Origin: Tetradesmus obliquus
Lineage: Eukaryota > Chlorophyta > Chlorophyceae > Sphaeropleales > Scenedesmaceae
Length of the DNA: 64,000 nt
Direction of reading: 5' to 3'
Assembly (NCBI GenBank): GCA_030272155.1
Contig: CP126200.1
Span: forward strand, 2,046,001 to 2,110,000
Shown here: one piece after another, positions 339 to 60,686 of the stretch
How positions within the stretch are numbered: the stretch's first letter is position 1
Layout: every line of letters starts with the position of its first letter
Notes under the pieces: model-generated
Databases searched by the model: none
The model's input: only the letters and a program-made list of their open reading frames with translations
What the model was told of the DNA's origin: nothing
Translations under genes and position numbers: made by a program

Positions 339-570
339 ACACCTGGCTCATCAGCTGCCGCCATGCTGCCGCTACTGCATGTGCAGACCCTCCCACTTGG
401 CCAGCAGGGGTATCAAACAAACACCTACACTGCCTAAACACTATACCCTGATTATCACCTATAATATTATTCAAAGATAAGACACCTGGCTCATCAGCTG
501 CCGCCACGCTGCCCGCCACTGTCCATGCAGCCCCTCCCACTTGGCCAGCAGGGGGGCCACTGCTGCCTCA
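339..570 (-). repeat. Two downstream copies of the 3' edge of RDR exon 844-654
   Basis: The exon end (LAKWEAAQPVAGSLAAADEPG plus donor) recurs at about 480-570 and 339-407. Each copy again ends in GATGAGCCAG followed by gtgt, so each carries a donor-like GT. Copies have drifted by point changes and small indels. Confidence 0.7.
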
Positions 571-653
571 GGGGCACCGGACAAAACCCTAGGTCACCTC
601 AACCCATAGTCTTAAACCCTGATGCCATGAATCAAGCCTTTCAGCCAACGCAC

Positions 654-2175
654 CTGGCTCATCAGCTGCCGCCAAGCTGCCCGCCACTGGCTGTGCAGCC
701 TCCCACTTGGCCAGCAGCGGGGCCACTGCTGCCTCAGGCAGGCCATCAGGCCCTGCTTGGACAACCAGGTCAGGGTCAAGCTGCAGCAGTGCAGGGTCTA
801 GGTAGTCCAGTGGTGGCAGCTCATGCAGCAGGCACCACCGAGATCTGCGAACAAATGACAAAGCAACAGACGGCGCTAATCAGTTTCTACAGTGGGGGTC
901 GAATCAGGGTCTGGCCATCAGGCCCTGCTTGAACAACTAGGTCAGGCGCAGCTGCAGCAGGGCGGGGTCCAGGTGCTCCAGTGGAGGCAGCTCATGCAGC
1001 AGGCACCACAGCGACCTGCAGGATAGCCGGAAATGCAGCACAACAAGCAGCACATGTAGGTTTCTAGAGGAGTGCAGGTGGGACCGTTGCGGCCAGCAGG
1101 CAGTGCATCAGGCCCCGCTTGGACAACCAGGTTGGGGTCCAGCTGCAGCAGTGCTGGGTCTAGGTAGTCAAGGGGAGGCAGCTCGTGCAGCAGGCACCAT
1201 AAAGATCTACAAGAAAAGGACAAGCAAACAGGCAGTGCTTATCAGTACACAAAGGGCGGGGTTGAAGTGAGGGTGTAGCAGCAGGTCAGGAGGCAGCTGC
1301 AACAGGGCGGGGTCTAGGTAGTCCAGGGGAGGCAGCTCGTGCAGCAGACACCACAGCGACCTGCAGGATAGCCGGAAATGCAGCACAACAAGCAGCACAT
1401 GTAGGTTTCAGGAGGAGTGCAGGTGGGACCATTGCGGCCAGCAGGCAGTGCATCAGGCCCTGCTTGGACAACCAGGTTGGGGTCAAGCTGTAGAAGCGAA
1501 GGATCTAGGCAGTCCAGCGGTGGCAGCTCGTGCAGCATGCGCCAAAGAGATCTGCTAACAAGCGCAAAGCAACAGGCAGTGGTGACCAGTTTCAGAGTGG
1601 GGTCAAATCCAGGGTCTGGCCATCAGGCCCTGCTTGAACAACTAGGTCAGGGGCAGCTGCAGCAGGGCGGGGTCCAGGTAGTCCAGTGGTGGCAGCTCAT
1701 GCAGCAGACACCACAGCGACCTGCAGGACAGCCAGAAGAGGAAACAAGCAGCACGTGTTACATTTTGCCAAGGTACGCCAGTGGGGCACAGCGGACCTGC
1801 ACTTGACTGCGCTGCAAGTGATGATCACAGAAGGCGACAGGCGTATTCGACATTCGACCGGCAGGAGCAATTGTTACTACACTGCGCTAGCATCGCAGCA
1901 GCTGTCAGCCGTGAGGAAGGCAGCAGCGCTCCAGCCCCACCTGATGATGTTGCTGCATCAAGGGCGCAAAGAGGCGCGAAGAAAAGAGATCAACCTAGGT
2001 TGCAACAGGGACGCTGTGCACGTATGCAGCTGCATTGAGCAGCAAGGAAGGCAGCAGCGTGCTCCAGGCTCACCTGATGATGTTGCTGCGCTGTGTTGCC
2101 CTGGCAGGGCTGCCGCCTGCTGCTGCTGCAGGTCCACACTGCTGGCCCTTCTGTGCTGCCTCCTTCACACACCTG

Positions 2176-3371: not shown

Positions 3372-4367
3372 AAAACCTCATCCAAATGTTGCGTGTGTAG
3401 CGATCTGCAGCCTGTGTTCTCAGCTCACCTCAGTCACAGTCAAACTGTTGGTGAACTGAGAAGGATGCATATCACCAATGCACACAGCAGGGTCCCTTGA
3501 TGTCATACATACCCACCAGCAGGCCTGATACTATACATACCAAGCATGGAGCAGGCCATCACGGCTCTATCATGTTCTGCAGCCTGCAGCTGACCCAGGC
3601 ACTGCGGGCTGCAGCTTCACCCGTCAACAAAGATCGGCCAGTTTAAAACCAGTCAAACAGCACCCGCTCACGTCATAGTCGCCCCCTGCCAATGCAGCAG
3701 CCAGGCAGCTGCTGCCCACAGTAGGCATGAAAGCTGCCCAAAGCGGCCATAACAAGCATCAAGCCATTCAAATGTGTCAAACGTCAGCCAAACGTCACCG
3801 CTCACGTCATAGTCACCCCCCTGCCAGTGCAGCAGCCAGGCAGCTGCTGCCGACAGTGGGCATGAAAGCTGCCCAAAGGGGCACCATAACAAGCATCAAG
3901 CCAGTCAAACGTCAGTCAAACAACACCCGCTCACGTCACAGTCTCCTCCTGCCAGCGCAGCAGCCAGGCAGCTGCTGCCCACAGTGGGCAGGAAGGCTGA
4001 CCCTTTCAGGGACACCATGCGTGTTCCATGGCGTTCTCACTCTTTATTTTTCGCCTCAGGTTATGCGTTCACCCTGTTGCGACTGATAGCAACTAAGATG
4101 GCGCCAGGACCCACATGCAACGATCCTCTCAGTTGAAACACCAAGCCAGCAAAAAACAACAACCATACATCAGCCAAACATCACCGCTCACATCATAGTC
4201 GCCTCCTGCCAGTGCCGCAGCCAGGCAGCTGCTGCCCACAGTGGGCAGGAATGCAGCACCATCAAAGCCCTGCGGCAGCAGCGCCAGCAGCTGCGGGGGG
4301 TAGCCGATGACACGCACCCTGCGCACATCACCAGGGTGGATGCCAGGGTCCCTGCAGCAGCAGCAGC

Positions 4368-4402
<35 letters not shown>

Positions 4403-6170
4403 ACAACCCTAAATGCACCGTGACTCACTAAGCAGGACTGCAGCAGGCAACCAACCAAGACCCAGCTGATGCCCGCTGCCCCAACAGCAGCTTCCACGGG
4501 TTGCTCGCCAGCGAAACACTTCAACATTCTTGACCCCATAGAAAAATGTGAACTACACAGTCTGACGCACCTGTAGATGACAGCCCACCCACAGCCCACC
4601 CACAGCGGAACCAGCTCCTGACGCACTGCCACACACCCCTCAGGCACAGTCAGGCAGAACCCAAAACCCTCCACTCCATGACACTCATACCTCTCAAGCC
4701 ACGGACGCACCTGTGAATGACAGCCCACCCACAGGGTGGCATCAGCTCCTGCCTCACTGCCACGCACACCTTGGGCACCACCCCCAAACGCTCCACCTCA
4801 TGACGCCTGGAAAACCCACTGACGCACCTGTAAATGACAGCCCAGCCAGACGGCAGAACCAGCTCCTCCCTCACTGCCCACACCACCCTCCGGCACCCCT
4901 TCCCACGCACACTCCCAACAGGGAACCATACTCCCTCTGACGCACCTGTAGATGACAGCCAGCCACAGGGCGGCACCAGCTCGTGCCTCACTGCCGCAAA
5001 AACCTTTGGCACTCCACCTGACGCCTACTCCAACAGGGAAACATACTCCCTCTAACGCACCTGTAAATGACAGCCCACCCACAGGGCGGCACTAGCTCCT
5101 GCCTCACTGCCACACAGCCCTCAGGCACACCCCTGAAGACCCTCAACTTTACTCAAAGAAAAACTATTAAACCCTCTGACGCACCTGTATATGACAGCCC
5201 ATCCACAGGGCGGCACCAGCTCCTGCCTCACCGCCACACACCCCTCAGACACACCCTCTGAAAGCCCCCGGACACCTCAGCCCCTGCACCGCACCTGTAA
5301 ATGACAGCCCACCCACAGGGTGGCACCAGCTCCTGCCTTACTGCCACACAGCCCTCCAGCACTCTACCCCAACGCCCACATCCCCACGCCCACATCCAAA
5401 CCTTACCCCTTGGACGCACCTGTAGATGACAGCCCAGCCACATGGCGGCACCAGCTCTGCCCTCACCGCCACACAGCCCTCAGGCACTCCCCCACAGCTG
5501 GGGTCAGGCAGCCCAAACAGCCTCACACCAGACAATACAGCAGCAGCAGCAGCAGCAGCAGCGGTGGCACTTGTGCAGGGTGCCACGAGGCCTGCGTGTA
5601 CTGCCTCTGCTGTATCTGCTGGGCTGGGCACTGGCAGTGACAGCATGGCGAGGCGCTGGCGCATTGCAACCTTGATGTCATGCAGCTCCTGCAGTACAGC
5701 AAAGAATAATGACACATGATGATGTTATCAGGGTTTGTTAGAGTTTGCAATGGCAGTGACAGCATGGGGAGGCGCTGGCGCATTGTCACCTTGATGTCAT
5801 GCAGCTCCTGCAGTAAAGTAACAAGAATGACACGTGACAATGAGGGTTTGTAGGGTTTAGTGGGGTTTGCACTGGCAGTGACAGCATGGCGAGGCGCTGA
5901 CGCATGGCCACCTTGATGTCATGCAGCTCCTGCAACAAACAAACAACACAAATAACGAAGTGAATAAGCAACATAAAGTGAATAAACATTATCATTGTTA
6001 CAGATATAAATGCACGGCAGAGCCCAGTCATATTGCAGGCACTGCACATGGCGAGCTCAGGTGATGCAGCTTTGCTGTGTGGCAACAACCACAGCTCACC
6101 TGCTTCAGTGCTAGGTCAGGCCTGAACTCTGTGTCAACTGACAGCCCGGCTGCTGCCAGGCCAACAGGCG

Positions 6171-10061: not shown

Positions 10062-11395
10062 GCCCTTAAAATGTTTCTTTGTTAGATTTTCAATATGATG
10101 TGGCGTGCATCTATGTATGTCGTTGCTTTATCCGCGCGCATCAAGCTTGCACAGCACTGCCTACGATACTTGGAGGTTTTCTTTTAGTGGTAGAACGATG
10201 CATACGGTCTCTGAACGACTTTCACATATTATAAACGCTTTTGGATGGCGTGTATATGCGCGGAGCGGTTGCTGAATTCGGTTATGCACAATGCTGTGCG
10301 TGCTACGCGACGTTTGGCACACCACGATGATCAGCCAGCATACTGCCAAATTGAGGTGGTGGAGCCCGAGTATCGGATCATTCTAATCATTTAGGGATGT
10401 TCCATTGAAATGATGAGTTCAAGCGATGGCTGCTGGTGTGACTTTTGAGTTGAGCAGTACCTGCAGAACGTGTGCAGCCCGCTGCAGCTGGGCAGAACCA
10501 CCCCTCTGCAACTTCATTGATGTTCACAGAGAGTTTGATGTGTTATGTTCCACCATCAACATGAACCTACGCATGCAAGTATTGCTTTGAAGACAGCTGT
10601 CAGGATAGCAACTGTCAGGATAGCAACAGCCTTTTTCACAACTGTTCAGACCCAAACCGCCCAGGGCTGAGTGCTCAACACTGTTACGGTACGGTAGTTG
10701 GATGTACTGTACTGTACTGTACTGTACTGTACTGTACTGTACTGTACTGTACTGTACTGTACTGTACTGTACTGTACTGTACGGTACGGTAGTGGGATGT
10801 TGCATGATCAGCCACCTCAGCATCGCAGCTCCAGAACCCGAGCCCAACATCATTGGGGCTGATTTTGCTGTACAAGTGGCTGAGCCATACGTATGGCACG
10901 GATATGTTGTGCTCGGGTTGTGGAACCACACAAGTTGTATGGCGCCACCATGCTACTCACATCCGGTGCGTGTGACATGCAGAAAGGCCATTGTATGGGT
11001 GGTTGACAAATTTGCTTGATTCCAGCAAAGCTTGAGTAGCATGTAGCCTTCGGAAAGGCTGCACGGCACAGCAGCTCAGGATACTTACATGCTTACATGC
11101 CATATGCAAACTCTCTGTCGACAACAGCACTGCTTGCTGCTGAAAGCTGCCTGCTAATATGCTATTCAAGAAGCAGCAGCAGCAGCAGCAGCAGCAGCAA
11201 CTACAACACAAGTGCTGTCACAGGCACATGTGTGCCAGCTGCATGCGTTCAAAGAGTACGCTCGCTATGCGCAGACTTGACAACTGACGCAATACTACTG
11301 TCGATGACTGACTGTTAGTAACAGGCTGCTCATAGCCGACTGTCAGCAACAGTCAGCCCAACCCGCCTGCAAGTAGTAGGGACACATGACGACAG
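10062..11395. other. Intergenic or 5' region of the RDR with a pentanucleotide satellite
   Basis: I see no convincing coding exon. The stretch holds the (ACTGT)n satellite at 10706-10780 and a short CAG run at about 11172-11200. Upstream RDR exons could still hide here. Confidence 0.4.
10687..10800. repeat. (ACTGT)n pentanucleotide satellite, 15 perfect copies, between short direct repeats
   Basis: Fifteen uninterrupted ACTGT units run from 10706 to 10780. Either side carries a near-identical acggtacggtag block followed by tkggatgt (about 10687-10704 and 10781-10800), so the array sits between 18-20 bp direct repeats. Confidence 0.9.
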
Positions 11396-13700: not shown

Positions 13701-13704
13701 TACG

Positions 13705-14125
13705 CTGTGCGGGGGCTTGCGGCCAGCCACATGCCCCCCTCCACCTTGAAAGTGAGCCTCATGAACGGCTAGCATTGCATGCCAGCACAAGCAACAGCGG
13801 CAGCAGTAGCAGCGGCAGCTGCTGCTTACGCTGTACGGGGGCTGGCCGCTAGCCACATGCCTCCCTCCACCTCTGTGCTTCAGCAGCAGCTGCGGCCACG
13901 CAGCAGCTGCGGCATCCTAGGTGCTGTGCGGGGGCTTGCGGCCAGCCACATGCCCCCCTCCACCTTGAGGGTGAGCCCCATGAACGCCTCCCTCCACTCA
14001 CAGCACCCTGGCACTGCAGCTGCAGCACAGGAGCTCCGCTGCATGGCGCCTCGCCGCAACACCTGCTGCAGCTGCAGCCACATGCCTCCCTCCACCTTGA
14101 CGCGGAGCCCCATGAACGGCTAGCA
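13705..14125 (-). repeat. Four copies of the P450 C-terminal coding end, beyond the stop codon
   Basis: Downstream of the P450 stop at 14222 the segment encoding LTLKVEGGMWLAASPRTA recurs at about 13715-13760, 13842-13875, 13925-14000 and 14080-14125, separated by CAG/GCA runs. Here the duplicated edge is the end of the coding sequence, not a splice donor. Confidence 0.75.
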
Positions 14126-14221: not shown

Positions 14222-17200
14222 CTATGCTGTGCGGGGGCTTGCGGCCAGCCACATGCCCCCCTCCACCTTGAGGGTGAGTGCCAGCATGGAGCGAGCCATG
14301 ACCTCCGCGTGGTCACCCATGCGCGCAGCGGGCCGGAAGCTGCAGCACCAGACAACACACAAAAGAAGAAGAGTGCGGCAGTGCAGTCGTGGTGAGGACG
14401 GCATTGTACGCATGCACGATAGTTGGAGCGCGCTATGACCTCTGCGTGGTCACCTTTGCGCGCAGCAGGCCGGAAGCTGCGGGAACAGGGAAAAGACGAA
14501 TCGAAAGAATCAGTGCAGAGGCGCAAGGCAAAGCTATGACACTGCGGCCATTGTGGCAAGGTGATTGCGGCGAATAGGATACGCGCGGTGCCAGGCAGGA
14601 AGCAATGCCGTTACGAGATCGCAAGCGCAAGGCTTGTGTGTAGCTGTACACAGAAGCTCCGCCTACATGCAGCTCAGTTCATTACTATCGCTTGCCACTC
14701 ACGTGACTGTTGACAGCAGCATTGCCACAGCGCTGCACACCACCACCTGCCCCAGTGCCAGCCCTCCCTCTCAGTCACCAAACCAACCAAATAACAAACA
14801 AAATAACAACATAACGCGTCACTCACGTGAATGTTGACAGCAGCATCGCCACAGCGCTGCGCACCACCACCTGACCCAGTGTCAGCCCTCCCTCTCAGTC
14901 ACCAAACCAAGCAAATAACAAACAAAATAACAACATAACACGCCACTCACGTGAATGTTGACAGCAGCATCGCCACAGCGCTGCGCACCACCACCTGCCC
15001 CAGTGCCAGCCCGATGCAGTTCTTGGGCCCTGAAGAGAATGGCAGGAACCTGGGGGCGCCGCTGACTGGGTCGATGGCCACGTCTGGGTTTTGCCAGCGC
15101 TGGGGTTTGAACTCCCGCGCGTCTGGTCCCCAGGAGCCGCTGTAGTTGTTGACCACGAAGAGTGAGGGGAACACGGTCACACCTGGCGGCACGAGGTAGG
15201 GGCCGATCTTGGTGGGGCGCTCTGTCAGCCTGCAGGGGGACAAGAGTGACATGGAAAGTGCGACAGAAGAGTGAAGAATGAGCGAGGGGAACGAGGTCAC
15301 ACACATACAGCCACAGGGTGTGCCAGTCAAACATTAAAATGATTCACTCACCGCGGTGACGCGGAGGCCCCAGCAGGGTAGAGCCGCATCGCCTCGTTGA
15401 TGACAGCCTCCGGGAATGGCAGCCCCTTCAGCGGGTCAAAGCTCTGACTCAGCATACATTCATGCGAAGCACACAACTCAACTATATCCATTGCCATATA
15501 GCTGCAGGCAAGCAAGAAATATCGCAGCTACAAGTCATCAAGCGCTCACACATACCAACACAGTCAGCCGCAAGCCAGCCAAACAAAGACACTCCCAGAC
15601 ATACTCACCGTGGTGATGCTGATGCGCCGGCAGGGTAGAGCCGCATCGCCTCGTTGATAACAGCCTCCAGGAATGGCAGCCCCTTGAGCGGGCCAACACT
15701 AATTTCACCCCAACGTACATGGACTTGTATGAAATCCCATACCACATAGCTGCAGGCCAGCCATCAAAGCCGGACTGGGCGACTTACACGTCTCAGCACA
15801 GACAGCCGCAAGCCAGCCTAAGCAGACATACTCACCGCGGAGACGCGGAGGCGCCTGCTGGGTAGAGCCGCATCGCCTCGTTAATAACGGCCTCCAGGAA
15901 TGGCAGGCCCTTCAGCGGGTCAAAGCTCTGACTCAGCACATCCAGGGCAGCGTCCAGGTCACCGTTGCAGGGCAGGCCCGCTGCTTTCAGCTCTGCCAGC
16001 AGCTGCGCCTCTGCCTCGGGGTGTGTGGCGATGCAGTAGAGGATCCAGGAGATGGTGTGCGCTGCTGTCTCTGGCGCCATGATCTGCAAGCACGGCGGAA
16101 GCAGTAATCTGTTAGTGTCTGTTGAATCAAAGCTGCGTGATCCAGGATGGTGTGTGCTGCTGTTTCCGGCGCCATGATCTGCAAGCAGCGGGGTAGGGGT
16201 AAGTGCACAGAGGCTGTGAAAATCCAGTGCTTGTTGATGCAGCGGGGTGGCGATGCAGTAGAGGATCCAGGAGATGGTGTGCGCTGCTGTCTCTGGCGCC
16301 ATGATCTGCATGGAAAGGAGTGCAGGCATGTGCACATAAGATGTAGGATTACAGTGATGCTTGATGCAGCAGAGGATCCAGGAGATGGTGTGTGCTGCTG
16401 TCTCTGGCGCCATGATCTGCATGGAAAGGAGTGGAGGCATATGCACATAAGATGTAGGATTACAGTGATGCTTGATGCAGCAGAGGATCCAGGAGATGGT
16501 GTGCGCTGCTGTCTCTGGCGCCATGATCTGCATACATTGTGTTGGGGCAAGCACGTCAGAAAATACAATCTTGTATACTATGTTGATGCAGTAGAGGATC
16601 CAGGAGATGGTGTGCGTTGCTGTCTCTGGCGCCATGAGCTGCAAGCAGCGTAATGGCACACACACACACAAGAAATGAAAAATTCAGTGATGCCTGATGC
16701 AGTAGAGGATCCAGGAGATGGTGGGCGCTGCTGCCTCAGGCGCCATGATCTGCAAGCACAGCGGAAGCAGTAATCCGTGAGTGTCTGCTGAAGCAGAGCT
16801 GTGTGATCCAGGAGATGGTGTGCGCTGCTGTCTCGGGCGCCATGATCTGCAGGGGTTGGTATTCACGCCAAAAGCTCAAAGTGTAATAGCACAAATAAGT
16901 ACCAAAGCAATATATACACAACACGACGCAGTGGTGCTGTGATACGGAAGGCAGAGGCAGGTGCAGGGATTGCACAGGCTGCCAGCCGCACCACCAACCT
17001 CTGTTGGTAACACCCTCAACACAGGACCAACACGCTGCTACCTGTTGATCCCTGCCATGTCCTTTCTGCACTGCGGGCAGTGCACTGCAGGCAATGCAAG
17101 CCAGCCCTGCTCTCACCTGGTTGCCGACCTCTGCCAGCAGCCGCTCCCTGCAGGGCGGCTTGCCTGTGTGCGGGTCCACCAGCCGCCGCAGGCAGGCAGT

Positions 17201-20078
17201 CAGGCTCAAGTCGCTGGGGCCCTCGCTGCAAGATGTGGCAACAGATACAGCACAGTACAATGAAGAACAGACGCAGCACAGTTTGTTAGGCAGGCGTTGA
17301 GGCTTGGGTCATTTGAGCCCTTGCTGCACGGTGCGCAGACAATTTGTCAGACACAGCAAAGCGCAGCGCAGTGTCAGAAAATGTTTGGAACACCAGGCGA
17401 TGCAGGCAGGCGGTCAGGCTCAGGTCACTGGGGCCCTCGCTGCACAGCATGCAGACACCGCGCAGGCAGTGCAATGCAGCACAGTGTTAACACGTTAGAT
17501 AACCGTCATGGCGCTGCCTGCATACTTTCTGAGGGGCGGAGCAAAAGGTGCTGCATGTAAGGTTGCCCTGCTTGTACCACCCTGCTGCCCGCCAGCCGTT
17601 GTCAAAAACAGCCTTCTGGCTGAACAATGAGCAAACAAACCCACCAGCTCTCCCCTTGGCACATGATGGGCTCGTACTCGTTCCGCATCCCATCCATTCT
17701 GCAACCTCTGGTGGTTTGAACCCGTAACAACATCTTTGCAGCAATCTCCAAGTACAACTGATGGAGCTCACCAGCTATGCCACAACTTCCACTGTCCATC
17801 AATACATGCATCCTACATCCAGTCAAAAAACAGCATCTAACAAACCCACCAGCTCTCCACGTGGCGCATGATGGGCTCGTACACCTCATTCGCCAGCCGC
17901 AGCCGCGCCCCCCGCAGCTGCCTGCCGCCGGGTGTGGCCCAGGGCGCCAGGCCGTGAGCCAGCGCCAGCCAGGGCTGAGCAGGGTGGTGGTGCACGATGC
18001 CGATGGCTGTTTCAATGTCTGCTGCTGCCTGCAGGTAGTCAATGCCGCAGGAGGGGGACATGCCAAAGAGGCCCTCCACCTGTCGCGGCACAATTTGAAT
18101 GTTTGAGCAGCAAAAAGTGACAAAAAAGTGACGTATTTGAGTTGTGATGCTGCCTGCAGGTAGTCGATGCCGCAGGAGGCGTCCATGCCAAAGAGGCCCT
18201 CGCAACATGTTTGAATGGTGCGGCAGCAGAAAGTGACAGATTTAGTAACAGATTGGAGTTGTGATGCTGCCTGCAGGTAGTCAATGCCGCAGGAGGGGGA
18301 CATGCCAAAGAGGCCCTCCACCTGTCGCGGCACAATTTGAATGTTTGAGCAGCAAAAAGTGACAAAAAAGTGACGTATTTGAGTTGTGATGCTGCCTGCA
18401 GGTAGTCGATGCCGCAGGAGGCGTCCATGCCAAAGAGGCCCTCGCAACATGTTTGAATGGTGCGGCAGCAGAAAGTGACAGATTTAGTAACAGATTGGAG
18501 TTGTGATGCTGCCTGCAGGTAGTCAATGCCGCAGGAGGGGTCCATGCCAAAGAGGCCCTCCACCTGTCGCAGCACAATTTGAATGTTGCGGCAGCAAAAA
18601 GTGACAAAAAAGTGACAATAAAGTGACATATTTGAGTTGTGATGCTGCCTGCAGGTAGTCAATGCCGCAGGAGGGGTCCATGCCAAAGAGGCCCTCCACC
18701 TGTCACGGCACAATTTGAATGTTGCGGCAGCAAAAACTGACAAAATAATGACAAAAAAGAGTCTGCTGCTGCCTGCAGGTAGTCGATGCCGCAGGAGGGG
18801 TCCATGCCGAAGAGGCCCTCCACCTGTCGCAGCACATTTCGTATGAGGTGGCAGTGCAAAGTGACAGATCATGTAACAGGTTGGAGTTGTGATGCTGCCT
18901 GCAGGTAGTCAATGCCGCAGGAGGGGGACATGCCAAAGAGGCCCTCCACCTGTTGCGGCACAATTTGAATGTTGCGGCGGCTTAAAGTGACAGATTTTGT
19001 AACAGATTGGAGCTGTGATGCTGCCTGCAGGTAGTCGATGCCGCAGGAGGGTCCATGCCAAAGAGGCCCTCCACCTGTTGTGGCACAATTTGAATGTTGC
19101 GGCGGCAAAAAGTGACAGATTTTGTAACAGATTGGAGCTGTGATGCTGCCTGCAGGTAGTCGATGCCGCAGGAGGGGTCCATGCCAAAGAGGCCCTCCAC
19201 CTGTTGCGACGAGGTCAAAACGTAAAGTAATAATGAAAGTAACATATGTGATGCGACAGGTCTTGCATGGTTACACAAGTGGGTACTGCAGGTGTTGTGA
19301 GCAGGGTGGGGGTGGGGGTGCCGTTGTGTGTTGTTTGGCATGTCTGCGTTGTTTGTAGCCGACGCATAGTTCACGCGTGCATGCTCTGCATCTGCTGCTG
19401 CTGCCGCTTTGCCTCATGATTGTTGTTCTGCCAGATGATGCTGTTGAATGTGGGCATTGCATCTGTGCTGATGCGGCATGCTGCACCATGCTGGGACGTG
19501 TCTGGCTAACTTGTTTCATGCCTGATTGTGCCACGTACTGTGCAAAAGCTGCAGCACAACAAGACTGAAAGCAGAATGCATACGCCGCGCCTTACCTGTG
19601 TCTGGATGGCAGCAGCCAGCAGGTGGTGGTCCAGCTGCACATCTGCTGCTGCTGCACACGTCACCTGCGCCACCACACCCTGATCCTGGTCCCGCACACG
19701 CACCACATCAGCATCTGCTGCTGCTGCTGCCGGCGCCTTCAGCTGCAGCTGCTGCTGCTTGCTGATGGCTGCATTGATGCGGTGGCCCACATCGCCATAC
19801 GCCTTGAGCGCTGCTGTGTAGCTGTTGGCAGCAGTGCAGCAGTGCAGCAGTGCAGCAGGGAAGGGTTCATACATGTTTCTTTTCCAAGCGAGAGGGTTTG
19901 GAATTCAGCGGAAGGGTTTTGATCCCAAACAGAATCTATGCGGTGTTTGAGTGATGGTTGCATAACGAGTGATGGCGCAAAGTTTGAACAAAAGTTGCCA
20001 GCTGCAGGAAGTGCCACGTGAAGAAAAGGCAAGCTGAAACCAACAGGTGTGTTGCGGCAGCTGTTATGTGCACAGCCA

Positions 20079-20121
<43 letters not shown>

Positions 20122-20650
20122 TGCTGGTCACTCACTTCTCCCTGTTTGCTGCTGGTGTGTATGCTGGTGACAGGGCCTTGCGCACAGCCACCCACATCTC
20201 CTCATTCTGCTCAGTGAGGATGCTGCAGGATACAGCAGGCAGTGCAGCAGCACATGTCAGTCATTTTGCTTGTAAGCAAGCAAGCAAGCAGGCAAGCTGT
20301 GTTGCCTCTCAACCACATCTTCTCATTCTGCCCAGTGAGGATGCTGCAGGACACAGCAGGCAATGCAAAAACAGGGTAGCTTAGGTGAGTCGTGTTGCCC
20401 GTAAGGCAAGCAGGCTGTGCTGCCATTGAGTCTTTTGATCAGTGCGCTACATACAATGCACCGCAAGGGAGGACACATATCTTGGCAAGTACTGCCCCTG
20501 CACACCGCTACTCCCGCTCCTGCGTATTGCTTTCAAAGCTGCTGCTAGTCACACCTCCTGCAGCTGCCAGCTGCTGCTGCTGCTGCTGCTGCAAGCTGAC
20601 GGCTGCTCATTGCCACTGCTGCTGCCGCAGGCTGCCGGCTGCCCCTAGCC

Positions 20651-31135: not shown

Positions 31136-32058
31136 GATTGAACAAGGGGGTTACGCCCGCGAAGCAAACGCCAGAAGCGTTGTGCTGCACCTCAAGCCAT
31201 CCGGTTGTGTGAGCTGCTGCAAAATGAACGTTTATGCACCTGCTTGAAGGGCGTCTTACGATAAGGGCAAATGTTCACATTCAGGTACTGAAGAGGCGTC
31301 AAAAGGTGTAGACGAAGCCGAGCTGGTAGCAACTTGGTTCAAACAGGTTGCAGGACAGGGCTGCCACGAGGTCAACACGCCATACGCATGGTGCTACCGA
31401 GGGTAACCACGCGATGTTTAAATGTTGACGTCTGAAATCAACTAAATATGCCCTCAAAGCTAACACTGTGATGCTTCGCACATCAACTGCGCACGCAGCA
31501 CACAGCACAACCCTAGTAACTGATCAGTCACTGTCATGACAGTCAGGGAACCTGGCTCGCCCTTGTTGACCGGAGTCAGCCTGTAGCAACCCTCGCCAAA
31601 CGCAGCCGGAGAAGTTGTTTCCACAACTGCCCAAACAACTGAGGCTCGACTGCCAGCGGCAACAGTGCACTGACACGTGCATGCTTGGCACTGCCAACAA
31701 CAACAAGCGACGTCAGGGAGGCGTGATTGGAATAAGCAGTCACAGGTGCACAAGCGCAGTTGCCTGAAAGATGCACGGCAACTCACCCCGCCACCAGACC
31801 GCGAGGGCACACCCTGCTTACAAAATGCCCCCCCCCCCCCCCCCCCCCCCCCCAGTAAGCACACCAGACCCATGTACAAGCCAGGCAATGTCACTGAACG
31901 CTCCCGCGCCCCCCCCCCCCCCAGTAAGCACACCAGACCCATGTACAAGCCAGGCAATGTCGCTGAACGCTTTCGAACTGTGGTACACAACTAAACAAGT
32001 GACGCATCATGCATGCAGGTCGAAGATACCTGCTAACTGCCAACGCATGCTCACAGGC
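31136..32058. other. RAD54 upstream region and methyltransferase 3' region
   Basis: No coding signature. It contains two C homopolymers, a repeat of about 75 bp, and a TTACA at 31818-31822. The last reads TGTAA on the minus strand, about 240 bp after the methyltransferase stop, and is a plausible polyadenylation signal for that gene. Confidence 0.5.
31828..31975. repeat. Two poly-C tracts heading a duplicated unit
   Basis: A run of 26 C (31828-31853) and one of 14 C (31909-31922) are each followed by the same block starting AGTAAGCACACCAGACCCAT and ending near CTGAACGC. On the minus strand these are G runs, located downstream of the methyltransferase stop. Confidence 0.85.
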
Positions 32059-36782: not shown

Positions 36783-39700
36783 ATGGCTTCCTCACCAGGG
36801 TCTCGGTCCTCGGCTAAGGGGCCACGCGTGGACACGTTCGTCATGCCTCCTGGTAATCTAGAAGTTAGGATGCAGCAAGCTGCATGCATGCTGAGTGCCT
36901 GTTGCGTAGAAGCAGTTGCTGCTGGTGCTGCTGCTGCCTGAACTGGTGCTGTACTCAGATGTTGCTTGCTTTGGTGTGGCTTGCTTTGCACTACTTGTAG
37001 AGAAGCACGTCAGCGTTGACGCTCACGAGCTGAAGATGGCAATCAAGAACAGGCTGGAGCTGGTGGACAGGGTTGTGTTTGACGACCTGTGCAAGCTCAT
37101 GGAGGGTGTGGCAAACTTTGACTTCTTCGACCTCAAGGACCGGTGGGTGAAACCTAACAGTGATGTTTCAAGCAGCAGCAGAGAACGCAGTGCAGCAGGG
37201 CTATTGTGCAGCAACGCCTGAGCACCATCGGGCCCAAGCAATGCTGCAGCTTGGGGCAGCACGCCTGCGAAGCTGGGAGAAGCAGCGCCAGAGAATCCTC
37301 CTGCAGCTGATTGACTGCTGGCCTGCAAGCCTCATGCTAACCATTCACGAGAGGCTCTGCGTAACGTGCAAGCACATGCCTGCAGTGCAGCTACCATGTT
37401 CATCCTTCTCCTGCAATGCTTCGTTGTGCAGCTGGCAAGCCCTGATGTACCCTGCAATCGTGCCAGTATGTCTGCACCTTTGACCTCGTATCACACCACA
37501 CCAGCGTTCAAATCACAGTATGCTTGCGTCAACATAAGCCCACTATCCTTCCTGTTCTCTCCATGCTCCTGTGCATACTGTTGTATCCCTGCAGCATGCG
37601 CACCAACTTCCTGCCATTCGCCAGCGGCGCCCGCAACAGCATCTACCTGCAGCGCAGCAGCAAGTCGCTGCCCACCACGCCAGTACTGGAAAAGAAGGAG
37701 AAGGAGTTCATTGCTGACGTGTATGAAGTCCTGCGAGCGTCACACTACACGCTGCTCACCAAGGAGGAGTGGGACCTGGCTCAGCAGGAGAACTTCAACC
37801 TCAACTTGCCCATGGAGGTCAACTGGGATTACATGGACCCAGACCTGCTCAAGAAGTTCTGGCAGAGCAGCCCGGAGAGGCAAGCCATCCGCGCCAACCT
37901 GCCCGACTGTATGGCGGTGAGTTGAGGGGAATCTGTTGCACTGGGTGGTGCGCAGCTATGCATAACGTGGAGCTGCAACCAGCCCATGCTCCACATCACT
38001 CACTCCTCTGGCATCCTTGTTGGGGCTCCATTGGGGCGCGGGGCCGATGGCGTTGATGCTATGGCTTGATGAGTAACATGATGATGATGACTCCTCTGGC
38101 ATCTCCGCTTGCTATTCATGCTGTCCTGCAAGCACAGCACCCTGCATGACGCACACTGCCTGGCCTGCACCATGCAACCAAACCCTGCAGGACCGCTTCT
38201 TGGTGTCCGCCCGCAGCACCGGCACAGAGCAGCTGTCCATTGTCACGCTGCTCCTGCAAGCAGAGAACCCTGCATGTCAGCTGCTGCTCCTGCTCTAGTG
38301 TGCCTCCTGTTCTGCTGCACCTTCACATCTGCAGGACCGCATCCTGGTGTTCCACTGCGGCATCGGCACTGAGAAGCTGTCAGCTGTCACGCTGATCCTG
38401 CAAGCACAGATTTCATGCATGCACATGCTGTCCTGCTCCACCTCCACCTCTGCAGGACCGCATCCTGGTGTTCCACCGCGGCATTGGCACTGCGAAGCTG
38501 TCAGCTGTCGGGCTGTTCCTGCAAGCACAGATTCATGCATGCACATGCTGTCCTGCTGCACCTCCACCTCTGCAGGACCGCATCCTGGTGTTCCACCGCG
38601 GCATCGGCACTAAGAAGCTGTCAGCTGTCGGGCTGTTCCTGCAAGCACAGATTTCATGCATGCACATGCTTTCCTGCTGCACCTCCACCTCTGCAGGACC
38701 GCATCCTGGTGTTCCACCGCGGCATCGGCACTAAGAAGCTGTCAGCTGTCACGCTGTTCCTGCAAGCACAGATTTCATGCATGCACATGCTTTCCTGCTC
38801 CACCTCCACCTCTGCAGGACCGCATCCTGGTGTTCCACCGCGGCATCGGCACTGAGAAGCTGTCTGGGCTGCTCATTGACCAGAAGCTGGACCTGCTGAT
38901 GGACTACACTGTGTTCAACCTGATCGACAAGATGCGGCAGCCGCTTGAGGGCCTGCTAGCCAAGGTCGGCCTGGTCAAGAAGAAGACGGAGGAGGAGCAG
39001 AAGGTGTGTGTGTGTTGTGTTTGACTGGGTTTGACTTGGAAAACAATGTGCTTTCGGAGCTTGTTTTGCAAGCTGCCGATATCTGTTCTGCAGCCAGCAG
39101 CAGCTCCCTCTGGGCGCAGGATGTCTACCAGACATCGCTGCTGTTTGCAATGCCTTAGCCTACCTATTTCAACCTCCATGGTCTGCTGCTGTTCCTGCTG
39201 CAACCTTTCCTGTCGACACAGGCTGCTGAGGCTGCTGCGGCAGCAGAGGAGGCTGCGGTTGCTGTTGTGCGCATGTCTGCGCATGGCGATGGTGCTGCCA
39301 TGCAGATGTATGAGATGCAGGGCAACACGCTGGTGGCCAGCACACATAAGTTTGCCAAGGTGAGCACACTGATATGTAGGATAGTGCAGATGTCTCAGCA
39401 AGTAGTGTGTGTACAAAAGAAACCACTGGTGGCCAGCACACATACGCGGGCGAGGAGGACTGCGCAGCACGAGCATGTGCTGACATCTCAGCAGCCATTG
39501 AAGCAGCAGTATGTAGTTCGTGCTCTCTGTACACGCACATCAGCTGCTGTGTTGCGCCAACCGCGTGAGCACCTGCACGCCCGCCTGAGTCACTGCCGGT
39601 CCCCGCTGTGATCATGCAGTGTGCAGTTAATGGCATCACGCACATATGCGAAAGCTTGTAAGTGCACTGCAGCCTGCTGCACACTGGAGCAGCTGCAATT

Positions 39701-42700
39701 TGTTTGGCCACCATGCACACCATGCACTGCTTCTTCTCGACCCCCTGCCCAACCGTCCTGCAGGCTGTGGAGCGCAACACGCTGGCGCGGCAGTGCCCCA
39801 CGCTGCTCACGCTGCTCAAGGCCTTCCCCACCAAGATGGAGCTGCAGGAGCCAACCTTCAAGGATATCGTGGTGGTCTACAGGTGAGGGTGATGTATGAC
39901 AGTCAGTTATGTTATCTTTTGGAGAACTGACAGGTTGACGTCTGGAGTCTGTACTACATACTATGGCTCGTTTAACCATTTTTCAGCATTACTGCTGTCG
40001 CCGCGCTGCTGCTGCTGTGCGCAGGCGCGCCTACCCTGCGCGCAAGCCGCCCACGGCTTCCGCCAACGCGCCCAACAAGACCAAGGACGAGCGCATGCAG
40101 GGCATCCTGCTGTACCGCAACATCAACATCAAGGTGTGTGACGAATCATCGCTGCATGGTACTGGGTGAATCGCATTGTACAATGTGCCTTTGCGGATGC
40201 GTCGGGATGACTTGCAGCATGCCCGCACACCATCACCCTGCACATGTTTGTTGGCCAAATCCCTTTGCCAGCGCGGAGCTGTGCTACTGTTGCAAGCTGT
40301 AACAGTATGTGATGGTGTGTGTGTCCATGCCTGCTGCTGCTGCTGTGTTTCGACCGCATTGCTCCTGCAGGGGTGTGGCGAGACGCCTATGGCCGACATG
40401 GAGATGTGCTTCTGGTGCAAGCAACCTGCAAGCGACAACCGTGTCCCATTCTTCTGTGCATTGTGTTGTTTCACTGTGTCGCGTGCAGGTGTTTGGCGAG
40501 ACGCCCATGGCTGACGCGGAAATGTGCTTTTGGTGCAAGCAACCTGCAAGCAGAAACCATGCCCCATTTTTCTGTGCATTGTGTTGTTTCATTGTGTCGG
40601 CTGCAGGTGTTTGGCGAGACGCCGATGGCTGACGTGGAGATGATCTTCCCCGAGAAGATCGTGGGCATCAAGCCCTTCCAGCTGGTCAACCTGGCGGTGA
40701 CGGTCATGACTGCACTCATGACTGGCGCGCTGGTGCTGTGGAAGGTGGGTGTGTGGGTAACATCCGTTTCGTATGTTTCTTTGTGTTGCGCTATAAGTAT
40801 GATGCTGGGAAAGGGTGATGACAGCGTTCAAAACGGATGTGCTGGTGCTTTGAAGGTGCTTGTGGGTTGTGGTTTTGCACTTGGGCAGTGTTTGCACTGT
40901 ATGTGGACTGGTTGCTGGCATCAAGCCCTTCCAGCTGGCCAACCTGGCGGTGATGGTCATGACCGCACTCATGACAGGCGCGCTGGTGCTGTGGAAGGTG
41001 AGTGTGTGTGTGTACTCTGGCTGAGGTGTTGCTGGGGTGTGACCTGTGGGGTGGCGGTCTGTGATGTTCTGGTCACCTTGGTGGTGACAGTCACGGCTGT
41101 GTCAGCGCTCATGGCGTGGGCCCCGGTGCTGTGGAAGATGCGGTGGTGCTTTGTTTGTGGTCTCTGTGATGATTGTGTGCAGCATCAAGCCCTTCCAGCT
41201 GGTCAACCTGGCGGTGACAGTCATGACTGCACTCATCACGGGCGCGCTGGTGCTGTGGAAGGTGCGCTTGTGTGTACCATTGTGCCTGCCTGTGGCTTGT
41301 TGTGGTCCATGGCTTGCGGTTCTCGTATGAAGCTGGTCAACCTGGTGGTGACCGTCATGGCCATGCTCAAGGCCGAGGTCCTGGTGCTGTGGAAGGTGTG
41401 TGGGCAATGTGGCAAGTGTTTTTGGCGGGGCCCGTAGGTGCTACTATAGCGAACGTGTTGCAGTGTTGCGCAATCTACTACTGCTCGAAACTATTTACTG
41501 CTACCAACAATTCTTTTTGGTCTGTGGGCGATGCTGGGCAGCAGGGAGGGGCACGTGATGACTGTGCTGAAGTTCAGTGCGTGGGTTCTGTGGGAGTGCA
41601 GGCGTGTGCGCGGGCCTGCATATGGTCTGTATGTGGAGCTGGTCAACGTGAACTGTGCCTGCTGCTGCTGCTGCTGCTGCCACACAGGCCGGCAAGGACA
41701 TCAACATGAACATCGTGTGGACCGCGGCCAGCCTGGTGCTCACGCGCTGCTTCACAGTGTACAGCACCGCGCAGACGCAGCGCACGATGCTGCAGCAGCA
41801 GATGACAAGCGCGCTGTACGACAAGATGCAGGACTCGCAGGAGGGCGTGGTCAGCGTCATCATGGAGGTGCGTTTGACTTTGACCAGGTTTGACTTTGAC
41901 TTGGCGTCCATGTTCCTCTCGACTTCGCGAATGTGATCTGTACTTTAGTCTGCGGCTGTCCTGACATGGCTCCATATCAGTCACCAGTCACCACATATTC
42001 AGACCCGCCTGCGCCTGCCGCTCTGCCTTGCACACTGCAGGAGATGGTCGACCAGCAGCTGAAGCAGATGCTGCTTGCCTACATGCTGCTGCTGGGCAAG
42101 CGGCCAATGCGCTTGACTTCTGCCCTGTCGTTGCATCTTGTCCGTCCTGCAGGAGATGGCAGACCAGCAGCTGAAGCAGATGCTGCTGGCCTACATGATG
42201 CTCCTGATCAAGGGCCGCCCTCTGCTGGCTGATGACCTGGACAACGCCTGCGAGGACTTTCTGTCAAAGGAGTTTGACCACCCGATTGACTATGACTTGG
42301 AGGCAGCGCTGCCGCGGCTCAAGCGCTGGGGGCTGCTGCGCGAGAACGCGCAGGTGTGATTGTATGCGCCGCTGCCTTGACCGTCGTTGTCTGTTATGTG
42401 CATGGATGCTTCCTGCAAGTTCTGAGGGTTGGTTTGTGTTGAAGTGCGGTTCCAGCAGCTACTGCCTCAAGTGTCTGCGGCAGTGTGTGTTGCAGATGGT
42501 CATTGGAAATGCCATTACCTGCAAGCGCAGTTGTCCCTATCTTATTGATCCTTGCTGCTGCTATTGTTACTGCTGCTGCTGCAGGGCAAGCTGGAGGCGA
42601 TGCCCATGGCTGATGCAGTGAGCACGCTGGAGGCAGCGTGGTCCACAGCCTACAAGGTCATCGGCAGCGGCAGCGCAGACGTGCGCACCATTGATATGAT

Positions 42701-57300: not shown

Positions 57301-59589
57301 GCACTGCTGCTGCTACTGCTGTGTTTGTGGCCAAGTGGAGGCAGTAGGTAGAGCAGTGGGGCCACGTGCATGTACTGCTGCTGCTGTGTTTGGAAAACAG
57401 CTGTTCCAGCAGCGTGCTCTGTCTACTGTGTCCTGACACAAGTGCTTCTGTGGTTGACTTGTGTGCGTGTGTGCCGGCCTGGCATGCAGATGCACAAGCA
57501 GGCTGCGGAGCAGCAGGCGCAGCAGCAGCAGGAAGACGAGGCAGACAAGGCGTATGCAGCTATGGAGGAGCTGCTGGGCAAGGCAGCAGCAAAGGCGTGG
57601 AAAGCAGCACGTGACGCATCACAAGGCACGGCAGCAGCTGGCACGCGCAACTCGCCGGCTGCTGCAGCTCGTGCTGACCCTGCTAGTGTCATCAGCAGCA
57701 CTAGCTCCAGCCGCACCACCAGCAACAAACAGCTAGAGGTGGCTGGTGCTACTTCTGCAGAGCCCAAGCACGTAGACAGCTTTGGAAGGAGCATCAGTGT
57801 GAGCAGCAGCCACAACAGCAGCTCAGGCCCAGCCACTCCAAGTGCAGCTAGCAACAACAGCAGCAGCAGCAGTAGCGCTGCGCCGACGCCCCGTGCAGCT
57901 GCTGCGACAGCCGCTGCTGCTGCAGCCGGCCTGCTGGCTGCTGCTGCCTCAGCAGCCAACCCTGCAGAGTCACTGAAGCTACAGCTGGCGGCGCTGGGTG
58001 TGCAGGATCCTGCGAATGTCAGTAAGGCGCTGCTGCAGGAGGTGGCTGCGCGTGCGGATCTGGATTGGCTGCTGGGCAGTGTGGCTGCGGCGCTGGAGGC
58101 GAGGGGGCTGCCGCGGCGGCTGAACAAGAAGAGCAGCATGAAGATCACGCGCGAGCTGAACAAGCGGTGAGGAGATAGAAGATAGGCGGATGTTGCAGGC
58201 AGTGTGGCGAAGTTCAGAGCATGTGCTGTGTGCAGCGCACCAACGCATAGTTATGAGCAGGTGTGACAGAGAGTTGTTACATGATGCGCACTAGGTGCAA
58301 AGCTTGATGGGAAGATGAGCAGTAAGGCCCCGTTGCTCGCCAGCTTGGTGTGGCTGTTGCAACTGCTGATGCTGCTGCCCGCCTGGTGTCTGCTGTTGTA
58401 TTTGCTGCAGGATGCTGGGCGGGGCGTCATGGAAGGGCTACGGGCCCAGCAAGCCAGGCAGCAATAGCCACAACAGCCAGCAGCCGGCCACAGACAGTGC
58501 AGCCGACAGCACAGATGCAGCAGCAGCTGCTGCTGCGGGGCGCCGGGCTGTGGGCTTCACAGGTGTCGCGGACTCAGCCAACAACATCAATCCAGGCAGC
58601 AGGAGCCACAGGGCGATGCGTGCCTCACTGGGTGATGATGCCGGCAGTGAGCTGGGCACTGAGGCGACTGGCCTGTCCAGCTGCGACTGGCGCAGTAGCC
58701 TAGATGGCTCCGAGGCTGCCAGCCTATGCATGAGCCTGGATGCTGACTGCGATGCTGCCGGCTATGACATGTTTGAGACCGTCAGCGTCAACTGCAGCAG
58801 GCCTGACAGGCAGCTGGTGGGTGCCAGCAGCAGCGAGGCGGGTGCAGCAGCGAGGAGTGGCGGGTCAGGGTCTGGCGGTGTGCTAAGCCCTACGGGGTTG
58901 CGGCTGCCAGGGATGGCTGCTGCTGCTGCTGCTAAGGCGCAGCAGCTAAGCCATGAGCAGTACGATGAGCAGTACGGGCCAGTGATAAGGACCCTGGGCC
59001 CTGGTGAGAGCTTTGGGGAGCTTGCGCTGCTGCAGAAGGGGGTGACGCGCACCGCCACGGTGCTGGTTACGCCGTCAGTGACACCGTCAGAGTTGGAAGG
59101 TAGCAGTGGGACTGGTCAGCTGGACAGGTTTGAAGAGGATGCAGCACCCGCAGCTGCCACTGCTGCTGCAACAGCAGCAGGAGCAGGTGGTGCACTGCTG
59201 GTGCGTGTCAGCAGGAGCTGCTACGATGCGACAGTGAGATCACTGCAGGTGAGATGCTGCTGGAAGCTGCCACATGCGGTCACAAAACGCACTGGGCACA
59301 ATGCAGCCTGCAGTGCAGTACTGCTGGTTGCTGACTGCACACCGTTTTCAAATCACTACTGCTGCATTGCTGCAGCAGCAGCAGCTGCTGCTGCTGCTGT
59401 TGCTGCAGGTTGCGACACTCAAAGAGCTGCTGTGATTCCTTGGGGGTGTGGGCCCACTGCGTGGCCTCAGCACTAAGCTGAACTGCTGCTGCTGCTGCTG
59501 CTGCCGCAGGTAGCTGCACTGGAGGAGCTGCTGGGCTTCCTTGGGGGTGCGAGCCCACTGCGTGGCTTGAGCAGGGAGGCGCTGAACAG

Positions 59590-59622
<33 letters not shown>

Positions 59623-60686
59623 ACTGCTACTGCTGCTGCTCTTTCAGGTCGCCGCACTGGAGGAGCTGCTGGGCTTCCTTGGGGGTGTGGCCCCGCTGCG
59701 TGGCCTGAGCACTAAACTAACCTGCTGCTGCTACTGCTGCTGCTCTTTCAGGTCGCTGCACTGGAGGAGCTGCTGGGCTTCCTGGGTGGTGTGGCTCCGC
59801 TGCGTGGCTTGAGCAGGGAGGCGCTGACCAGCCTGGCGCTGTACGCGCGGCCGCTGAGGGTGGGGGTGGGGGAGCTGCTGGCTGTGGCAGGAGACAAAGT
59901 GAATGCGCTGCTGATCATCCAGGTGGGTGGGGTGGGGGTGCTGATGTTGAGGGTGGGGGTGGCGGGGTGGGGGAGCTGCTGGCTGTGGTTGGGGACAAGG
60001 CCGGCGCGCTGCTGATCATCCAGGTGGGTGGGGTGGGGGTGCTGATGTTGAGGGTGGGGGTGGGGGAGCTGCTAGCAGTAGCAGGAGACAAGGCCAACGC
60101 GCTGCTGATCATTTAGGTAGGAGGGGATGGTGGTTGTGCTTGTCTGGTGCTTGCTTCTGCTGCAGCTGTTGTGTTGGCAGATGCAATTGCAGCTGTCCAA
60201 ATGCACAGCTGTCAGCAAGGTGGTGCATATGCGCTGTCTGACGATTGTGAGTCCTGCTTTTGGTCTTGCGTTTGTCATTTTGCCTCATGTCCACCCCTGC
60301 AGGAGGGTGAGGTGAAGCTGCTGGACACACCAGCTGGCTCTCTGCCAGCTTCACACGGCAGCCTGACAGGCGCAGCAGCAGCAGCAGTCGGCAGCAGCGC
60401 TGCAGTGCCGCTGCTGCCGCGCTCACGCAGGGCCACAGCTGATGAGACGCTGCTGCGGCTAAACGCATATGCACCAGGCAGCAGCAGCAGCGGCAGTGGC
60501 AGTGGCGCTGCTGGCAGTGGTATGAGTGCTGCTGGCTCGCGCGCACTCATCCGGCAGCTAAGCCACCAGCAAGCCGGTGCACAGGCTGCGCAGCAGCAGC
60601 AGTGGCAGGGCAACACCCGGCTGTGGACAGCTGATGCGGCAGCTGCAGCATCATCTGCGCCAGGTGGCAGCCAGGGCGCTGGTGGA

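Follow-up and report, generated by a model that had tools for sequence, protein, structure and literature searches.

Tandem copies of exon edges in the introns of a P450 gene and other genes of Tetradesmus obliquus

Minisatellite arrays consist of head-to-tail units, and they grow and shrink. Gao and Lynch (2009) reportedly described duplications within genes that take in both exon and intron parts. Here we describe arrays of a related kind in a stretch of 64,000 nt from chromosome C10 of the green alga Tetradesmus obliquus (positions 2046001-2110000, hereafter the window), where the introns of a P450 gene and of several other genes carry tandem copies of the edges of their neighbouring exons. 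The copies lie head to tail and each unit is made up of an exon edge, its splice site and adjoining intron sequence, as in a tandem duplication that crosses an exon boundary. This sets the arrays apart from minisatellites, as the unit holds the edge of the neighbouring exon together with a splice site that is usually intact.

The closest described case (Ma, Lan and Niu 2016, PMC4974935) is an RdRp gene of potato, in which one tandem duplication across an intron-exon boundary gave rise to an additional exon and an additional intron, as confirmed by RNA reads. The duplicated segment runs from the end of an intron through the acceptor into the start of the following exon, as it does here. Unlike that event, the T. 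obliquus duplications have left many copies per edge, at donor as well as acceptor edges and in many genes, and the copies are intronic, the orthologous proteins being without extras. In the model of Rogers (1989), as outlined in two later papers (PMC3443670, PMC2891723), tandem duplication of an exonic AGGT segment creates an intron, and local tandem duplication supplies the splice sites there as it does here. In contrast to that outline, the units described here mix exon and intron sequence and appear to lengthen introns that are presumably older. An AGGT origin was considered for the P450 gene and set aside, as its copies hold non-exonic sequence and exon 8 starts with ATC and not with GT. 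Introners, as presented in PMC9860276, are likewise repeated sequences with splice sites, dispersed among genes, whereas both units tested here are confined to their own array. We consider the event to be the same as in the known single boundary-crossing duplications; what is new is the density, the many copies and the lengthening rather than creation of introns. No description of exon-edge arrays at this density was found in the literature on the phenomenon, on intron gain and repeats or on the organism and its genome, a search that left most subscription journals outside. Frequent local tandem duplication across exon borders probably explains the arrays.

Edge copies in the P450 gene

The exons of the P450 gene were placed independently of the repeats, by tblastn of two orthologous proteins against the window. 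One is a P450 of Scenedesmus sp. NREL 46B-D3 (P0028; 578 aa, 86% identity over 85% of the query) and the other is a transcript-derived open reading frame (P0029; 555 aa, 76% identity to the query). This gave ten exons on the minus strand, and each edge was then moved to the best-scoring splice site no more than 15 nt away (Table 1). The introns were then searched with the whole flanking exons. The results showed 24 copies of adjoining exon edges, with 9, 7, 2 and 2 copies at four edges and one each at four others. Nineteen of them lie upstream of their exon and start 0-3 nt from its first base (one for exon 4, nine for exon 6, one for exon 7, seven for exon 8 and one for exon 10), and the five downstream copies finish at the last exon base (one for exon 6, two for exon 8 and two for exon 9). 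Units within the arrays are mostly spaced by 97-136 bp and some by 222-257 bp. The first-pass annotation, made from the letters alone, had described one to nine tandem copies in these introns, upstream ones with the acceptor and first codons and downstream ones with the last codons and donor, and the homology-based exons bear this out. A 25th match, upstream of exon 5, was discounted as a low-complexity stretch.

Every repeated edge is present once in each of the two orthologous proteins, when these are read by eye. Duplicated or mutually exclusive whole exons were rejected for this gene, since the intron copies fall 51-219 nt short of a full exon. Copies are also made of the last exon's end, beyond the stop codon, where three of the four copies stop no more than 1 nt from the exon end and the fourth stops 21 nt before it. 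Two of these post-stop copies (13704-14100) read TAA, and the working exon 10 reads TAG.

At exon 6 the duplication spans the working acceptor itself: positions 18023-18298 of the window equal 18265-18540 exactly over 276 bp, at a lag of 242 bp. Unless the assembly is wrong at this place, duplication at an edge in use is thus recent. Misassembly that expanded the repeats could also give such an exact 276-bp block, but most copies differ by substitutions and indels, the pattern is found on many contigs and this contig is millions of bases long, so that we hold an artefact to be highly improbable. In seven of the nine exon 6 copies (in one after a 1-base shift) an aspartate codon is found where the working edge has serine. 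P0028 has aspartate at this site, P0029 has alanine and a further protein, P0030, also has another residue. Compared in this way, the copies may have preserved an older state of the edge, with a polarity that rests on one orthologue because P0029 and P0030 have other residues.

In the window 56 copies were counted at 16 exon edges, six of these in the P450 gene, and the start of exon 4 and the start and end of exon 10 are to be added to the 16. This is in line with the earlier estimate of about twenty edges, which included RDR, DUF3754 and cyclic-nucleotide genes. Outside the P450 gene, edges and frames were taken from open frames and splice consensus and not from orthologues. A hydrolase-like open reading frame in the window is identical (100%) to the T. 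obliquus protein OEZ85_003615 over 47% of the query.

Own-edge copies in a sample of introns

The shuffled-pairing comparison, suggested with the first-pass annotation for the whole genome, was run on a sample of introns from four protein families, on loci of ~3.3 kb each. Family searches of the genome (104.66 Mb, 17 contigs) gave 295 exon matches that were used, 153 of them in the sequence analysed. Exon pairs contiguous in the hidden Markov model bracketed 67 introns, of which 60 had a confident junction and seven were dropped; the splice consensus was CAG/GTGAG at donors and TGCAG/G at acceptors. At a Smith-Waterman score of at least 44, the intron held its own upstream edge in 6/60 cases as compared to 1/3518 shuffled pairings, and its own downstream edge in 4/60 as compared to 1/3518. 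With a score of at least 40 the numbers rose to 8/60 and 5/60, in 12 different introns, one of which lies in the window, leaving 11/59 outside it. Shuffled pairings reached 3/3518 upstream and 6/3518 downstream (0.1-0.2%) even at the laxer cut-off of 36. Three of the 12 introns score just 40-47 at the upstream edge, and two such alignments end 13 and 29 nt before the edge. Own exon interiors, taken 100-160 nt from the edge, gave no match of at least 36 in the intron (0/53 and 0/52), and interiors in other pairings gave 8/3108 and 8/3048.

Boundary-crossing duplication, known from single cases, thus touches about one in five introns of this small sample, with ages from exact to decayed. The share is rough, because the sample consists of four protein families on ~3.3-kb loci. 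Introns with copies had a median length of 457 bp (n=12) vs. 259 bp (n=48) for the others (p=2.9e-5). The first-pass annotation had seen in the arrays a continuing process that lengthens introns and had linked it to intron gain. The longer introns and the one exact duplication at a working edge speak for the first part; intron gain is not supported, as the copies lie inside introns. The interpretation given in the annotation thus stands in part. As a candidate for origin by tandem duplication, suggested by its sequence, we note a P450 intron at locus L002 (C14 from 3244298, sense 710-964), in which the last ~35 nt are similar to the upstream exon's end and provide the acceptor, CCTGCAG.

Unusual here are how often such arrays arise and how large their units are. 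After filtering, 287 kb of sequence contained 39 arrays with units of at least 30 bp; the window accounts for 13 of these, and the period is 90-129 bp in 24/39. A coding-potential scan of the 39 arrays found a coding-like segment reaching from one side into 17/26 arrays outside the window; it was left out of the counts because five of the window's 11 known edge arrays escaped it. Translated repeats were considered and rejected, as 14/39 periods are multiples of three (about chance) and 11/56 window copies have frameshifts, though some arrays are open in one frame. One array in a kinesin gene (C2:7429165-7432353, locus L032) has about six units of ~141 bp; a single open frame of 387 aa runs through all of them, and each acceptor is preceded by a CTG run of variable length.

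Two units were also searched against the whole genome, and all 10 and all 8 matches among the best candidates scored lay in the unit's own array, including the working exon. Introner-like or transposed sequences with splice sites of their own would, as these copies do, bring splice sites into introns and enlarge them. As the two units match nowhere else among the best candidates and the introns match their own exon and not the exons of other genes, such elements can practically be dismissed.

Probable duplication, its placement and possible exchange

The duplication that we favour would work as follows. The genome would often duplicate local segments in tandem, mostly of 90-130 bp, the cause of this size being conjectural. 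When a segment spans the border between an exon and free sequence, either intron or post-stop flank, the innermost copy would be joined to the exon body and be in use, and the rest would be intronic. The protein would be unchanged, so that border-spanning events would survive and most events within exons would not; with repeated events arrays would build up, introns would grow and unused splice sites would come to stand in rows. The spliceosome would keep to the working edge because this lies nearest the exon body, as in exon definition. Array units and the working edge would exchange sequence now and then, whereby the exon part, constant by selection on the working copy, would stay recombinable and the intron part would drift. 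Recursive splicing through AG/GT at unit borders was also considered; it is possible where the exon starts with GT (exon 6) and does not fit exon 8.

The first-pass annotation regarded the way in which the copies keep to exon edges as special, since ordinary satellites do not respect them. We do not uphold this. With the observed intron and unit lengths, uniform placement gives 56% edge-spanning duplications and 44% inside the intron, and a rough detection model gives 61-66% and 34-39%. Tandem Repeats Finder reported eight arrays in 68 homology-defined introns, seven with an exon edge and one without (period 29), and ungapped self-comparison of 60 introns gave 8 edge arrays vs. 1 internal. Keeping to edges needs no targeting, because an exon-overlapping duplication survives if one edge is intact and introns are short. 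Random placement, together with the copies past the stop codon, which obey the same rule without a splice site, indicates that it is largely survivorship. A mechanism that makes exon edges or splice sites the target of duplication, such as one that works through splicing intermediates or RNA-templated repair, would fit the 7 vs. 1 and 8 vs. 1 arrays and the conserved block that finishes near the splice signal. We consider it very unlikely, as random placement already gives 56-66% edge arrays and the post-stop copies have no splice site; moreover, the copies hold intron sequence, which is absent from mature mRNA, and exact lengths such as 111 bp suggest duplication of DNA.

Several observations nevertheless weigh against duplication followed by drift as the full account. 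The count of edge arrays (7 vs. 1) is somewhat above what the placement model predicts, an excess that is suggestive and not significant (p ~0.15). Between intronic copies in the window, differences amount to 7% at codon positions 1+2, 14% at position 3 and 42% in the adjoining 45 nt of intron, as compared to 59% between unrelated intron pieces. At donor edges the copies share an identity of 0.86 over the final 20 bases of the exon and of 1.00 and 0.88 across the six bases of the donor, and identity then falls to 0.44 and 0.27. At acceptors it drops more gradually (0.92, 0.94, 0.69, 0.60, 0.55); these profiles are ungapped, so that indels depress the intron values. A contrast of about twofold is the most that plain duplication and drift would allow, and the contrast observed between exon and intron parts is larger. 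Working edges compared with copies outside the window show the same pattern, with the exon part kept and the intron part not.

Our best guess is that the contrast comes from recurrent exchange with the working edge. Units 18949 and 18321, whose exon parts (57 nt) are identical and whose intron parts are 68% alike, count for exchange. The array at locus L091 counts against it: between its copies the intron part is 0.95-0.97 identical and the exon part 0.87-0.96, without an exon-intron contrast, so exchange is not universal. The identity break in this array was dropped as an exchange breakpoint, as it may just mark the end of the copies' exon part. It is conceivable, though rather doubtful, that the copies form a living reserve of exon edges, in which exchange with the working edge is frequent enough to hold them to protein and splice-site constraint even though they are spliced out. 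If so, exon ends would be renewed from the arrays, which would be concerted evolution inside single genes.

A further explanation is that the copies are functional, with selection keeping alternative or decoy splice edges or splicing enhancers. Splice dinucleotides are intact in 47/49 window copies that reach the edge, with a mean score of 5.1 vs. 6.2 for working sites, and in 14/14 outside the window (GC counted as intact; three are GC, one of them no donor). The preserved exon part and donor signal, next to an intron part that is not kept, would agree with function, as would the share of differences at third codon positions: 100/181 between copies overall, which is above one third, and 61/86 between exon and copy in homology-bracketed introns (19 copies, two in the window). 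Older arrays favour third positions (RDR 21/35, P450 intron 8 8/10), and working edges and copies together give 128/226 (p=0.027 vs. one half). These p values are optimistic, because sites in one array share a history, and the case for selection is weak, because copies of a slowly changing exon taken at different times can also reach one half. Freshly amplified arrays are without this bias (2/13 and 3/8), and the orthologous proteins hold each edge once. The frameshifts in 11/56 window copies and a stop in 1/56 indicate that the copies are not maintained as coding sequence. We therefore regard selected function as improbable, and local duplication, with occasional exchange as a presumed addition in some arrays, remains the explanation that we prefer.

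The process, and the tolerance of rows of equally strong and apparently unused splice sites, are open to direct study here. Duplication across borders predicts that splice sites are chosen by nearness to the exon body and not by intron definition, though the introns are short. The arrays offer a natural system for how introns grow, and gene predictors may mistake the copies for exons.

Features and other repeats in the window

Table 1. Exons of the P450 gene and copies of exon edges, in positions of the window
Feature	Position	Strand	Basis or remark
P450 exon 1	~21675-21487	-	tblastn; donor scores weakly
P450 exon 2	~21180-21031	-	tblastn; donor scores weakly
P450 exon 3	~20783-20699	-	tblastn
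P450 exon 4	~20222-20136	-	tblastn
P450 exon 5	~19821-19596	-	tblastn; acceptor scores weakly
P450 exon 6, working copy	18079-17850	-	tblastn
P450 exon 7	~17225-17117	-	tblastn
P450 exon 8, working copy	16083-15836	-	tblastn
P450 exon 9	~15229-14951	-	tblastn
P450 exon 10	~14339-14225	-	tblastn
Exon 4 start, one copy	20310..20345	-	exon-vs-intron search
Exon 6 acceptor and first ~57-63 nt, nine copies in intron 5	18145..19200	-	exon-vs-intron search
Segment duplicated in tandem without a difference over 276 bp (lag 242 bp), across exon 6 working acceptor at 18079	18023..18540	-	
Exon 6 end and donor, one copy	17645..17677	-	exon-vs-intron search
Exon 7 start and acceptor, one copy	17391..17439	-	exon-vs-intron search
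Exon 8 acceptor and first 40-59 nt, seven copies in intron 7 (111-bp units for the most part)	16139..16846	-	
Exon 8 end (89 and 104 nt) and GTGAGT donor, two copies in intron 8	15351..15696	-	
Exon 9 end (63 nt) and GTGAGT donor, two copies in intron 9	14702..14888	-	
Exon 10 start, one copy	14424..14478	-	exon-vs-intron search
Last-exon end, four copies 3' of stop codon	13704..14100	-	exon-vs-intron search
Unassigned gene: acceptor edge near 844 in five copies, donor edge near 653 in two	342..1714	-	exon from sequence only
RDR gene (PF05183 match 4192-4365): three donor-edge copies, exon ending 4191	3676..3997	-	
RDR region: seven donor-edge copies, exon ending near 5420	4577..5364	-	
RDR region: two acceptor-edge copies, exon starting 5688	5740..5929	-	
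DUF3754 gene: five acceptor-edge copies, exon starting 38818	38191..38745	+	
DUF3754 gene (PF12576 match 40601-40810): two acceptor-edge copies, exon starting 40607	40373..40530	+	
DUF3754 gene: three donor-edge copies, exon ending 40744	40917..41395	+	
Putative cyclic-nucleotide-binding gene: three acceptor-edge copies, exon starting 59752	59416..59715	+	name from first-pass annotation
Same putative gene: two donor-edge copies, exon ending 59922	59964..60117	+	

The window holds other repeats as well. A 71-bp repeat in two copies at 57247-57385 may be a further exon-edge duplication. Two near-identical copies of a 69-bp unit with a long C run lie at 31840-31971, and a nearly pure array of ~18 TGTAC units is found at 10703-10791. 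CTG/CAG trinucleotide runs are very common across the window; those in exons encode poly-Ala or poly-Gln, and intronic ones lie ahead of acceptors.

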